A stretch of 50,582 nucleotides of DNA from Acidobacteriota bacterium (GTDB lineage: Bacteria > Acidobacteriota > Blastocatellia > Pyrinomonadales > Pyrinomonadaceae), in NCBI GenBank assembly GCA_021323895.1, contig JAJPKD010000125.1, positions 1 to 50,582 of the forward strand, written 5' to 3'. The position numbers were made by a program, and so were the translations under genes. Positions 44,384-50,321 of this stretch are shown here, piece after piece (positions within the stretch are counted from its first letter, which is position 1; each line of letters begins with the position of its first letter). The notes below the pieces were generated by a model. That model was not told where the DNA came from and searched no databases. It saw only the letters and a list, made by a program, of their open reading frames with translations.

Positions 44384-44443
44384 AATCGCTGAGTGGCGGT
44401 ACCTGTGAGTACCGAACCTGGAACCGAGAGAAGAGACCTCCTA

Positions 44444-46951
44444 ATGAAGAGACAAACGCAAACGAAGAAGCAAGTTTGGCGAGCACTTACGGCAACGACA
44501 ATCGCGTTGTCGCTGGTTGCCGGCATTCTTATCGGCGAAAGCGCCAAGGCGGAGAGCATCAAAGCTCCCCGCGCGCAGACCGCATTAGCGAAGTATGCCA
44601 GCGACCTGACTGCCGCAGCCGAGCAGGGCAAATTCAACTCAATCGACGAGAACACCGCCGAGACGGATCAAGCGATCCAGATTCTGTCGGGCGAGCACAA
44701 GAACAATCCGGTCGTCATCAGCGATTCACAGGCCGTCCGTGACATCGTTGCGGTTAGCGTCGCGCGGCGTATCGCTCGCGGCGAAGTCCCAGCAGCACTC
44801 AGCGGCAAACGTTTCTTCAAACTCAACCTCGATACTCTTTTCCACGATTCCAAGGATGCCCAGCAACTCAACTCACATCTCTCGCAAATACTTTCAGACA
44901 TAGCCCAACTGGACAACAACGCCATTCTCTTAATTGATCCGATTCAGGCCCTCGTCGGTCCCGAAGGGGCTTTCGAAGGCGCCGCCTCAGCGCTATTGCG
45001 CGAAGCGATCAAGAGCGGCACGGTCCAATGCTTCGGTGCTTCGAGCCAGGTCGCCTTCCAGAAAAATGTTGCGAGCGAGGAATCGCTCGCGCCGCTGTTT
45101 GCAGCGATCGAGGCTGATCAAACCTTCGGCGCCGACACTGAGTCGGGTCAAAGCGCGAAAGCTGAGCGCATCAACAAAGAATCTTTCGTTGGCGACAACG
45201 TTTCGCCGGATTTGCGCGAGCTGATGCGCAATAACAATGCGCCCTCGCATGTCAAAGCGATTCTCCAGGTCAACGATGTCAACAATCCGAAGGTCCGCGA
45301 ACTGCTGAGCGCTAACGGCGTTGCGATCGATGCGCAAATGCCGCAGCTTGGATCGTTGGCGGTCGATGTTCCGACTAAAGTCATCGACAAGCTCGCTGCC
45401 AGTTCGCAAACGAACTACTTGTCTTTGGATCGAAAAGTCGCCGCCGCAGGACACATCGAGAACACTATCGGCGAAACCGCAATGTGGGCCCAGGGCGGGA
45501 ACTCCGGTTTTGACGGCAGCAACATTGGCATTGCGATCATTGATTCCGGCATCACCAAGATGGGTGGTCTAGACAGGATCACTTACAGTCAGGACTTTAC
45601 CGGTGAAGGAAGCACGAACGATTCGTTCGGCCACGGAACCTTTGTAGCTTCGACCGCCGCCAACAACAAAGGTTCGTACGGAGGTATTGCGCCAGCCGCA
45701 AAAATCATCAACCTCCGCGCGCTGAACTCGCAGGGCACCGGAAACGTTTCGTCGGTGCTGGCCGCGCTCAATGCGGTTGTTGTCAATCGCACGAAGTACA
45801 ACATTCGCGTAGTCAATATGAGCCTGGGAATGCCCGCGGTTGACTCTTATCAAAACGACGCGCTTTGCCGGGCCGTTCGCGCGTTAGTTAACTCGGGTGT
45901 CGTGGTCGTCGCCGCCGCAGGGAACGACGGCAAGGACGCAACCAACGCCAAAGTTTATGGCCGGATCCACTCACCTGGTAACGAACCCTCGGCAATCACT
46001 GTCGGCGCCGTGAACACCCTCGGCACTGACATTCGCAGCGATGACTCGGTCGCCACCTTCAGTTCCCGTGGCCCAACCCGCAGCTATTGGACCGATGCGT
46101 CGAAAGTCAAACACTACGACAACTTGATCAAACCGGACGTGGTCGCGCCGGGAAACAAGATCATCAACAATGCCGCACCTAATAACCAGTTGGTGTCGCG
46201 GAATCCCAACCTTTCCATCCCGGGCAGGGGAAATCTGATGCGCATGAGTGGCAGTTCTGTCTCAGCTCCCGTCATAGCGGGTGCCGCGGCTGTGTTGCTC
46301 GAAGCCAATCCCAATCTGACTCCCAACCTCGTCAAGATGATTCTGATGTACACCGCTCAACCGTTGGCGGGCTACAACATGCTTGAGCAAGGCGCTGGCG
46401 AAGTAAATATCGAAGGCGCCATGCGATTGGCGAAGCTGATTCGCAAGGATCTCTCATCGAGCACCGCGGTTGGCTCGCCGTTGCTCACCTCTTCATTGCC
46501 GACTCCGCAAAGCACCATCGCCGGCCAAACATTCACCTGGTCGCAGGGAGTGTTGTTCCATTACGGCTGGGGCTACGGATCAGATTTGATTTCGAAGTAT
46601 CAAGGCATCTACGGCTTGGGCGTTTTGGTTAGCGATGGCGTTCTCGTTAGCGACGGCGTCCTGGTTAGCGACGTGAAAATGCTAACTAACGGAGTCTTGG
46701 TTAGCGATCAGATTCTCAAAAGCAACGGCATCACCATGTCAGACGGAGTGCTGGTTGCTGATGGAGTTTTGATCGGCGATGGCACACTCCTCGCGGATGG
46801 CACGCTTCTCGCTGACGGCACGCTTCTCGCCGATGGTACGCTTTTGGCGGACGGCACGCTCTTAGCCGACGGAACAATTTTGGCGGACGGCACCATTCTC
46901 GCCGACTCCGCCTTGCGCGGTGATAACACGGCCTGCATGTCAGTTGAATAA
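44444..46951 (+). CDS. Secreted subtilisin (S8) with inactive ClpB-like AAA+ domain and hexapeptide-repeat tail
   Basis: An 835-residue protein. The signal peptide (TATTIALSLVAGILI) ends near residue 35. Residues 45-228 align in order with the first AAA+ domain of ClpB/ClpC (KYASDLT, EQGK, KNNPV at 86-90, RGEVPAALSGKR, ILLID....LVG at 161-172, then GASSQVAFQK), but the Walker A GxxGxGKT is lost and the Walker B Glu is Pro. Residues 268-333 look like an inhibitor-I9-type propeptide. The S8 domain follows with Asp 367 (IIDSG), His 397 (GHGTFVAS), oxyanion Asn 494 and Ser 605 (SGSSVSAP). Residues 726-827 are 17 hexapeptides (GVLVSD to GTLLAD). The ATG at 44444 begins the signal peptide. Likely an active secreted protease. 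Confidence 0.88.
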   Translation: MKRQTQTKKQVWRALTATTIALSLVAGILIGESAKAESIKAPRAQTALAKYASDLTAAAEQGKFNSIDENTAETDQAIQILSGEHKNNPVVISDSQAVRDIVAVSVARRIARGEVPAALSGKRFFKLNLDTLFHDSKDAQQLNSHLSQILSDIAQLDNNAILLIDPIQALVGPEGAFEGAASALLREAIKSGTVQCFGASSQVAFQKNVASEESLAPLFAAIEADQTFGADTESGQSAKAERINKESFVGDNVSPDLRELMRNNNAPSHVKAILQVNDVNNPKVRELLSANGVAIDAQMPQLGSLAVDVPTKVIDKLAASSQTNYLSLDRKVAAAGHIENTIGETAMWAQGGNSGFDGSNIGIAIIDSGITKMGGLDRITYSQDFTGEGSTNDSFGHGTFVASTAANNKGSYGGIAPAAKIINLRALNSQGTGNVSSVLAALNAVVVNRTKYNIRVVNMSLGMPAVDSYQNDALCRAVRALVNSGVVVVAAAGNDGKDATNAKVYGRIHSPGNEPSAITVGAVNTLGTDIRSDDSVATFSSRGPTRSYWTDASKVKHYDNLIKPDVVAPGNKIINNAAPNNQLVSRNPNLSIPGRGNLMRMSGSSVSAPVIAGAAAVLLEANPNLTPNLVKMILMYTAQPLAGYNMLEQGAGEVNIEGAMRLAKLIRKDLSSSTAVGSPLLTSSLPTPQSTIAGQTFTWSQGVLFHYGWGYGSDLISKYQGIYGLGVLVSDGVLVSDGVLVSDVKMLTNGVLVSDQILKSNGITMSDGVLVADGVLIGDGTLLADGTLLADGTLLADGTLLADGTLLADGTILADGTILADSALRGDNTACMSVE
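46619..46924 (+). repeat. Seventeen coding hexapeptide repeats (18 bp each)
   Basis: Units run from GVLVSD (early) through GVLVAD and GVLIGD to GTLLAD (five identical in protein) and GTILAD, ending SALRGD. The DNA of the identical GTLLAD units differs at most third positions, so the protein sequence, not recent slippage, is conserved. A regular 6-residue period with hydrophobic and Asp/Gly positions suggests a solenoid. Confidence 0.75.
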
Positions 46952-47231: not shown

Positions 47232-50200
47232 TTGAGCGATAAGAATCCGATCACTGATGAGTCAGTTGTGGACCTGGCGCAGGCGCGCGTGCGCCGCGCT
47301 CGCGCCGCGAAAGCCGGTCGTGAATCTCTAGCCCTTCAGCTTGAAGCCGTCGAGGATTTGCTCGACAAGGGCCAATCCGTGGAAGCGCAATCGCGCCTCA
47401 CTTCCCTAATTGCCGCCGCCCGAAACGATCCTCAAAGTCTGGCTCGCGCTCGTCTCGCGCTGGCGCTGACTGAAGAGATGCACGGCAACTTTGCCGAATC
47501 GCTAGCGGCGGTTTCCATGTATGAGCCGGCGGAGTCACGCTCAGGGTTTCCCATCGATCTCTCCGTGAAACTCATCGTGCAGATGAGCCTCGCCTCGAAT
47601 TACACCGGCGATCACCCGAAGGCGATCTCGATGCTCAAAGCTGCCCTGCGCGATCTTCCCGACGGCGACTCTAACCCTGAATCCGGCGCCATCTTCGCGG
47701 CGCTAGCGCGCGTGTATCGCAGCATCAACGAGTACCCGATTGCGCGCGATTATTCCGAAAAGGCTCTGGAGATTTATCGCCAGCGCGGCGATTGGCGCGG
47801 CCTGGCGGAGGCATACTTCGGAATTGCGTTAGCCGTTCATCAGGAAGGCCAAGTCGAGGCTGCGCTTGAGAACTTTGAACAAGCACTGAAGCTAATCGGC
47901 GATCATCCCGCAACTTACCTGCTCGGGAAAATCTACGCCAACATGGCGTCGGCCGCGTGGTGGCTGAAACGTCCGCAGGAAGGCATCCAATATTTAGAAA
48001 AGGCGATCGGCTATTACGAGAGTACGGATCACAAATCAAACGCGGCGATCGGCTACAACAACCTCGGCGTCAACCTGACGCTAATCGGCCAATGGGAGCG
48101 CGCGCAGAGTGCGCTTGAACGAGCACTCGAAATTGCAGAGACAGTCGGCTCGAATGTTGTTCAGACCCCAATGATTCTGGATTCGCTGGGTGAGCTTTGC
48201 ATGCTCCGCGGCGAACTTGAAGCAGCCAATAATTACTTGGAGCGCGCCGTCGAGTTAGCCACAGAACACGGTAACAAATGGTACGAGTGCCAGGCGTTGC
48301 GCACGCTCGCGCGTTGTCAGATCGCGTTGGGGGCTAGCAAGGCGGCCTTTGACACGGCGAGTCGCGCGCGTGAGCTTGCCGACCGCATGGGCGATCGACA
48401 AGCCACGTACGAATCTCAACTGTTACTGGCTGAGAGCGCGCTCAACACAGGTGACATCGAATACTGCGCCGCGCATGTCGCCCCCGTAGCCGAGCACACC
48501 TCCGATTCTGCCGCTGATCTCGGCCTGGCGGGTGAAGCTCAGAGACTGCTGGGCTTACTGGCGATGGCCCAAAGTGATCCAGCATTAGCTGCGCAACACT
48601 TTGGTCGTTGCGCCTCGATTTTCGATCTGCTGGGCGATCGATATCGTACGGGACGAGCACAGTTCGATCTCGGTCGCGCCTACATGAGCGCACAGCCTGA
48701 GCTGGCGACTGAGCATCTTTTGCGCGCGGCCAACATCTTTCGCGAACTCGGCGCGAAGCTAGATCTCGAACGCGCTGACGCTGCTCTGCGCGAACACGAT
48801 CAGACACCGCCACAGCAGGAGCGAAAGCGCGAAGCCGCAGTTCAATTGATCACGTTGCGCCTGGCTGAAGCTGTTGCTTCGCGCGCACTGTTGTTGCGGG
48901 AGCTGGCCGCCGTGGTGCGCCAGGAAACAACTGCCGATCGAGTGATGGTGCTTGAGCCGGATGAAGAGCAGAAGATTCGCGTCGTTGCGTCGCACGGATT
49001 CGATTCGGATCGCGCGACGACGATCGCTGACGAGTTTGCCTCGCTGGAAAACAACACAGCCCGCGAACGGTTTGCTAAGAAGCATGATGCAAAGTTAATC
49101 ACGCTGAAATCGACCAACTCCCTGCCCGCAACGCTGCTCATCTCGCCGAAAAGCGCCGCACAGCTCGCCGGAGGTTTGCCGCTCGAACCATTGTTGCGGG
49201 TCGTCGAATTGGGCATGGACGTTTGCGCTTTGCGCGCGCGCGCATCAGCCGGGCATGCCGCGGAAAATCAGGATGGCAGCGTGGGCACGGACCTGATGCC
49301 CGGCTTTATTCACTCAAGTCCGGCGATGACGCGGCTGGTCGAAGAGGTGCACAAAATTCGCTCGTCGGATGTGACGGTGCTGGTTACCGGCGAATCGGGC
49401 ACTGGCAAGGAATTAGTGGCGCGCGCGATTCACGCCCTGTCGTCGCGTCGCGACAAAGTCTTTGTGCCGTTCAATTGCACCGCCGTACCGAAAGAGCTCT
49501 CGGAAAGTTATCTGTTCGGTCATCGGCGCGGCGCTTTTACGGGCGCGGTTTCGGATTCGCCGGGTGTGATTCGATCGGCCTCAGGTGGAACACTTTTTAT
49601 CGATGAAGTCGGCGATTTGCCGCTCGACGTGCAGCCGAAGCTTCTCCGCTTTCTCCAGGAAGGCGAGATTCAGCCGCTCGGAGAGCAGCAGCCGATCAAG
49701 ATCGATGTCCGCATCATCGCCGCCACGAATACCGATCTCGAAGATTTGGTCGCGCAGAATCGCTTTCGCGAAGATCTCTATTACCGCCTGAACGTGATTC
49801 GTTTGCGCGTGCCGCCATTGCGCGAGCGCCGTTCAGAGATTCCGACGATCGTTAACTACTACATTAATCACTACTCGGTAAAGTTTGGACGCCACGATAT
49901 TCAGATGACGCCGCAAGCAGTCGATCTTTTGATGGTTGGTGATTGGCCGGGAAATGTGCGGCAGCTCTGCAACGAGATTCAGCGCATCGTCGCCCGCGCC
50001 GAAAACGGAACCGTTATTACGCCGGAACACTTGTCGGCAGAATTGCGTCACATGGGAGTGCCTACCGCGCCCCACGCGAACGTGAGTCCGTTCGGAGTCC
50101 CACAAACCGGCCGCTCCGAAACGATCAATCTGGACAACGTGACGCTGGCTGGTGCGCTCGAGGAAGTCGAGCGGCGCATGATTACTGAGTCGCTGCGTCG

Positions 50201-50321
50201 TCACAAAGGAAACATTTCGCGCGCGGCCCGCGAACTCGGACTGACGCGGCGTGGCTTATATTTGAAGATCGAACGCTATCAAATCGAGATGCAGCCGAAA
50301 GCCGGCGGCGCGAATGCTTAG
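47232..50321 (+). CDS. Sigma-54-dependent transcriptional activator with TPR sensor region
   Basis: A 1029-residue protein. Residues about 40-520 are TPR-like helical pairs. About 535-670 is a weak GAF-like region. The AAA+ sigma-54 domain (about 690-925) has Walker A GESGTGK at 720-726, GAFTGA at 767-772 (the sigma-54 contact loop, intact), Walker B GGTLFIDEVG at 785-794 and the RLNVIRLRVPPLRER segment. A Fis-type helix-turn-helix lies near 990-1015 (NISRAARELGLTRRGLYLKI). There is no response-regulator receiver domain; the TPRs probably sense a protein or peptide. The start is uncertain: TTG at 47232 has no ribosome site, and an in-frame TGA lies at 47193-47195. It follows the S8 peptidase. 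Confidence 0.88.
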   Translation: MSDKNPITDESVVDLAQARVRRARAAKAGRESLALQLEAVEDLLDKGQSVEAQSRLTSLIAAARNDPQSLARARLALALTEEMHGNFAESLAAVSMYEPAESRSGFPIDLSVKLIVQMSLASNYTGDHPKAISMLKAALRDLPDGDSNPESGAIFAALARVYRSINEYPIARDYSEKALEIYRQRGDWRGLAEAYFGIALAVHQEGQVEAALENFEQALKLIGDHPATYLLGKIYANMASAAWWLKRPQEGIQYLEKAIGYYESTDHKSNAAIGYNNLGVNLTLIGQWERAQSALERALEIAETVGSNVVQTPMILDSLGELCMLRGELEAANNYLERAVELATEHGNKWYECQALRTLARCQIALGASKAAFDTASRARELADRMGDRQATYESQLLLAESALNTGDIEYCAAHVAPVAEHTSDSAADLGLAGEAQRLLGLLAMAQSDPALAAQHFGRCASIFDLLGDRYRTGRAQFDLGRAYMSAQPELATEHLLRAANIFRELGAKLDLERADAALREHDQTPPQQERKREAAVQLITLRLAEAVASRALLLRELAAVVRQETTADRVMVLEPDEEQKIRVVASHGFDSDRATTIADEFASLENNTARERFAKKHDAKLITLKSTNSLPATLLISPKSAAQLAGGLPLEPLLRVVELGMDVCALRARASAGHAAENQDGSVGTDLMPGFIHSSPAMTRLVEEVHKIRSSDVTVLVTGESGTGKELVARAIHALSSRRDKVFVPFNCTAVPKELSESYLFGHRRGAFTGAVSDSPGVIRSASGGTLFIDEVGDLPLDVQPKLLRFLQEGEIQPLGEQQPIKIDVRIIAATNTDLEDLVAQNRFREDLYYRLNVIRLRVPPLRERRSEIPTIVNYYINHYSVKFGRHDIQMTPQAVDLLMVGDWPGNVRQLCNEIQRIVARAENGTVITPEHLSAELRHMGVPTAPHANVSPFGVPQTGRSETINLDNVTLAGALEEVERRMITESLRRHKGNISRAARELGLTRRGLYLKIERYQIEMQPKAGGANA

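Follow-up and report, generated by a model that had tools for sequence, protein, structure and literature searches.

A ClpB NBD1-like domain with lost nucleotide-binding residues in putatively exported S8 proteases of the Pyrinomonadaceae, a candidate pro-module

Described systems and the domain order of the window protein

NBD1 of ClpB/Hsp100 (1JBK, 4HSE, 2P65) is an AAA+ domain with a related NBD in SMAX1 proteins (NBD_SMAX1, PF23569), which take part in nuclear signalling in plants. Subtilisins cleave behind the I9 propeptide and remove it. In pro-Tk-subtilisin (2E1P), ProN-Tk-SP (3AFG) and fervidolysin (1R6V), an I9-like prodomain is followed by an S8 domain with an intact triad. An AAA+ fold outside the cytosol has been described for LAP1 and LULL1, pseudo-AAA+ activators of Torsin in the ER/nuclear-envelope lumen; the lumenal AAA+ fold of LAP1 is without Walker A and without the C-terminal domain, and LAP1 has been proposed to act through a conserved Arg finger (PMC4358337).

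The protein described here is an S8 peptidase encoded in the window, the whole stretch of 50,582 nucleotides that was analysed, by the ORF 44393-46951 (+). The best start is the ATG at 44444, which gives 835 residues. Residues 1-36 (44444..44551, +) read as a Sec signal peptide, MKRQTQTKKQVWRALTATTIALSLVAGILIGESAKA, with cleavage predicted between AKA and ES after residue 36. The basic n-region, the hydrophobic core and the AxA motif were recognized by inspection, in agreement with the first-pass annotation, and the N-termini of other family members resemble this one. Export of the protease is therefore suggested by a signal peptide read by eye.

The signal peptide is followed by the ClpB NBD1-like large AAA+ subdomain with lost nucleotide-binding residues (residues 45-228; 44576..45127, +), a linker (45119..45178, +), an I9/subtilisin-prodomain-like inhibitor propeptide (45179..45445, +), the peptidase S8 catalytic domain (45515..46390, +) and C-terminal hexapeptide repeats of the form G[VT]L[VL]xD (46661..46948, +). 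The same order is found in the fusion family, and the position of the ClpB-like domain in front of the propeptide is as had been proposed. The S8 domain matches PF00082 (E=1.1e-42) and has the Asp, His, Ser and oxyanion-hole Asn motifs; the DSG, GHG and Ser motif columns are invariant in the S8 alignment. Like the pro-subtilisins named above, the protein thus has an I9-like prodomain before an S8 domain with an intact triad. Unlike them, it carries an extra dead AAA+ domain of 185 residues before the propeptide, as well as the C-terminal repeats. These repeats are common to relatives without the ClpB-like domain and might be a surface-retention stalk. Their units (GVLVSD / GTLLAD) resemble left-handed beta-helix or LED repeats.

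The propeptide had been called I9-type from its letters. This assignment holds at the level of fold and less so at the level of the profile: the Pfam I9 family (PF05922) gave no match above cut-off in the window protein. In a model of the ClpB-like domain, propeptide and S8 domain (pLDDT 86), the prodomain before S8 has a beta-alpha-beta-beta-alpha-beta fold by DSSP, and the top PDB matches of the I9-S8 part in Foldseek are ProN-Tk-SP, unprocessed pro-subtilisin E and pro-Tk-subtilisin. The relatives L098 and L132 show weak propeptide matches, that of L132 being above the Fervidolysin_NPro-like cut-off. An invariant GH[VI] follows the propeptide. It is likely to be a processing landmark, with autocleavage at or near it. 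The linker between the ClpB-like domain and the propeptide is the low-confidence part of the model (residues 226-245) and is probably flexible; it is conserved poorly, with 37% identity to the nearest orthologue.

The gene lies downstream of nnr and upstream of a gene for a large protein with TPR, sigma-54 activator and Fis-type HTH parts (47232-50321, directly downstream on the same strand). Both neighbours are conserved with close orthologues only, and the neighbourhood therefore gives no hint of function.

Homology to ClpB NBD1 and loss of the active-site residues

When residues 45-228 were searched with phmmer against all PDB sequences, E. coli ClpB NBD1 (1JBK) was matched with E=9.5e-25. 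The remaining significant matches, down to E ~4e-10, are ClpB, ClpC, ClpE, ClpA, Hsp104 and Hsp101 chains; 8xon_S has an odd molecule name, yet it is part of a Streptomyces ClpC1 complex entry. In NCBIfam, the same segment matches ClpB (TIGR03346, E=3.6e-28, profile 153-336), and ClpB is matched independently by 53 of 56 family members (E<=1e-5). The domain is identical to the ClpB of the same genome at 59 of 186 positions. In Pfam, NBD_SMAX1 alone was obtained, with E=7.7e-5 and below the cut-off, so that routine annotation would miss the domain. SMAX1 differs from the fusion domain in being a plant protein with neither export nor a protease.

An AlphaFold2 model of residues 45-228, built from an alignment of 56 family members with no templates, has a pLDDT of 90.2 and a pTM of 0.83. 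Its top PDB match in Foldseek is again 1JBK (E=1.1e-14). By VIA-align it superposes on 1JBK with Z=26.2 (183 residues, rmsd 2.4) and on Hsp104 with Z=26.3. The likeness to ClpB/Hsp100 NBD1 extends over 175-185 residues in sequence and, with Z about 26, to the fold, including the N-terminal KYxxDLT helix and the succession of strands and helices. Only the large alpha/beta subdomain is represented in the segment: the ClpB match ends near ClpB residue 336-347, and the protein has neither the lid nor the middle domain nor NBD2, the I9-like propeptide and S8 domain standing in their place. Residues 45-228 are a true homologue of the ClpB NBD1 large subdomain. This homology, suspected in the first-pass annotation, came out of the sequence search, Foldseek and the superposition alike, and the sequence evidence stands alone, independent of the model. 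Chance resemblance, or independent convergence towards a widespread alpha/beta fold, has a negligible probability. No support for it was found, and the E-values obtained from sequence alone, the restriction of the matches to Clp/Hsp104-type proteins and the independent family matches rule out chance similarity.

The residues for binding and hydrolysis of ATP and for threading are lost, as are the Arg fingers, in which the domain, fused to a protease and putatively exported, further differs from ClpB/Hsp100 NBD1. The former Walker A (residues 93-100; 44720..44743, +) reads SDSQAVRD against GEPGVGKT. The former Walker B (ILLIDP, residues 161-166; 44924..44941, +) aligns as ILLIDPI with ILFIDEL, the catalytic Glu being replaced by Pro; the alignment thus reproduces both losses that had been noticed by eye. 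At the Arg-finger positions, PL is found in place of RR, and at the pore loop, D in place of Y.

Among 61 non-redundant fusion members, none has an intact Walker A (GxxGxGK[ST]) and none retains the pore-loop Tyr. The Walker A Lys is retained in three (L073, L069 and L071), the Walker B Asp in 44 and the Walker B Glu in 22, and one Arg finger in 4/61, the other in 6/61. In true Clp proteins of the same class, each of the scored active-site residues is present in 28/28, except the pore Tyr (27/28). The least degraded members are L073 (4001-4588; GETGVGKA) and L069 (207-806; GETPYGKA). L073 is closest to an intact P-loop, with just the last Thr lost.

An enzymatic role of the domain seems very unlikely, since the residues for ATP binding, hydrolysis and threading are all lost. 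A ligand other than a nucleotide may be compatible with these losses. Conservation reaches at least 70% at 25 positions of the fusion family, and at 23 of these the residue is that of the Clp consensus, which is consistent with the fold being the selected trait. The comparison of conserved positions with the Clp consensus revealed no family-wide novel conserved site in the domain. Core positions are retained and surface positions are variable.

These losses bear on a possible role like that of LAP1, in which a dead AAA+ subunit joins and modulates an active AAA+ partner that is itself exported. The closest parallel in function is LAP1, whose lumenal AAA+ fold likewise lacks the Walker motifs and the C-terminal domain (PMC4358337). 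LAP1 and LULL1 are, unlike the fusion proteases, eukaryotic membrane proteins that keep the Arg finger, regulate an active AAA+ partner and are not fused to a protease. Most members of the fusion family have lost the Arg positions, and for this reason a LAP1-like role is not favoured. We also know of no exported Clp ATPase in these bacteria, and the LAP1-like role seems highly improbable.

Distribution, origin and selection

At least 60 non-redundant fusions of a ClpB-like domain with an S8 protease were collected in the search for further cases in Acidobacteriota that had been proposed, and they belong to Pyrinomonadaceae. In a survey of 162 genomes of the class, 119 of them Pyrinomonadaceae, the fusion was counted by hand in about 72 of these 119 and in no genome of another family among the matches listed, where weaker cases could escape. 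Matches at E<=1e-66 occur in 21 of 396 genomes from the phylum, every one of them from Pyrinomonadaceae. Of 80 loci that a contig scan yielded in MAGs of Acidobacteriota, Blastocatellia or Pyrinomonadaceae, 55 have the fusion. The family sample consists mostly of metagenome-assembled genomes; an assembly or binning artefact is ruled out by the identical architecture in about 70 genomes. Five further genomes of the genus have fusion orthologues that are 47-79% identical in the ClpB-like domain; between distant members, identity is ~20-30%. The domain is thus an old family-wide module and no peculiarity of one protein.

ClpB-less paralogues share the I9-like propeptide, the S8 domain and the hexapeptide repeats. 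This means that the ClpB-like domain is an optional module, an added specialisation that the protease class does not need. Tandem copies of S8 proteases were observed at L084 (386-6235), L123, L127 and L132; of two adjoining copies at L084, a single one has the ClpB-like domain.

The window genome also encodes a true ClpB, a true ClpC and a second fusion gene, which sits at a contig end (G000:C49). This second paralogue adjoins a true clpC in divergent orientation in five genomes of the genus: G000:C49 (L035), G004:C167 (L036), G003:C73 (L037), G006:C2 (L038) and G005:C744 (L039). The adjacency may be a coincidence or may reflect co-regulation.

In a tree of Clp and pseudo-domains (a short search with long branches and no bootstrap), the pseudo-domains fall on one side of a branch (SH-aLRT 99), set apart from all true Clp, and this branch attaches next to Pyrinomonadaceae ClpB, away from ClpC. 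The fusion-family profile scores ClpB NBD1 at about 200-220 bits and ClpC at about 162-170. An origin from ClpC is ruled out by these scores and by the place of the clade beside ClpB. Sequence comparison thus gives the domain a single origin, in the ClpB of the lineage itself. Most of the ClpB-less paralogues fall into a single clade of the S8 tree (97), and two more are placed among fusion carriers; L075, also ClpB-less there, was left out of the count, being cut by a contig end. Depending on its root, this tree may fit one gain and a few losses.

For the nearest orthologue pair, omega was 0.08 in the ClpB-like domain, 0.17 in the I9-like propeptide, 0.35 in the linker and 0.06 in the S8 domain, rough values since dS is >1. 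At omega about 0.1, the ClpB-like domain is under purifying selection and is not decaying freely. The degradation of every catalytic motif and the low identity of distant members might suggest a decaying, functionless relic carried by the protease. However, the fusion is retained in about 70 genomes across many genera without frame breaks, and the predicted fold (pLDDT 90) and the low omega also speak against a relic, which has a slender probability.

Proposed role of the ClpB-like domain

The explanation considered here, which we hold to be somewhat more probable than its negation, is that the exported dead ClpB domain is a non-enzymatic pro-module of the S8 protease. In a single event, an exported S8 protease would have acquired the large subdomain of ClpB NBD1 between its signal peptide and I9-like propeptide, the source being the ClpB of the lineage itself; the residues for nucleotide binding, hydrolysis and threading would have been lost with the fold kept. 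A flexible linker would tie it to the I9-like propeptide. Most likely it belongs to the removable pro-region, because it is N-terminal to I9 and subtilisins cut behind I9; cleavage there would release the dead ClpB domain and I9 as one extended pro-region. We infer that, before this joint release, the pro-module would bind the nascent or folding protease, or an outside partner, and so would aid folding, solubility or latency until activation. In favour of this explanation are the homology, the loss of active-site residues with the Clp consensus kept at conserved positions, the low omega, the place of the clade beside Pyrinomonadaceae ClpB, the match of the I9-S8 part to pro-subtilisins and the I9, S8 and repeats shared with ClpB-less paralogues. 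Weighing against it, these paralogues show that the protease class can mature without the domain, the linker to I9 is of low confidence in the model, the omega values are rough, and the lost residues may leave room for another ligand. A narrower form is possible though doubtful, namely that the ClpB fold with ATP binding lost is an ATP-independent intramolecular chaperone for the exported protease, holding or assisting its folding chain beyond the cytosol, and defines a new propeptide class.

Partner binding is the main rival. The ClpB-like domain might be a targeting or partner-binding module, the AAA+ fold serving merely as a scaffold, that stays attached, or bound via I9, and docks the protease to a surface, to a substrate or to another protein. 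The variable surface over a retained core, the flexible linker and the optional presence among paralogues are in line with this reading, but the domain is N-terminal to a propeptide that subtilisins remove, and no new residue conserved throughout the family came to light. Targeting is therefore considered rather unlikely, and a part as pro-module in folding, solubility or latency is favoured.

In the open-access literature, no published description of a fusion of a ClpB domain with a subtilisin was found. The claim that such reuse had no described example is upheld, within this literature, for a bacterial protease; it is too wide for dead AAA+ domains outside the cytosol in general, which have a precedent in LAP1/LULL1 (PMC4358337). 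Of the proposal that a cytosolic chaperone domain was reused as a pseudo-enzyme prodomain, the homology, the residue loss, the export signal and the place before an I9-like propeptide stand, and its use as a prodomain is probable to the degree given above; the suggested work as folding helper or substrate binder is hypothetical.

In this family, nature provides a clear example of how the domain of a chaperone motor left the cytosol, shed its enzyme function and kept its fold for a new role. The Pyrinomonadaceae show the whole path, from true ClpB through near-intact P-loops to fully lost ones, together with sister proteases without the domain. Because of this, tests can ask which feature of the AAA+ fold besides ATP hydrolysis was worth keeping.
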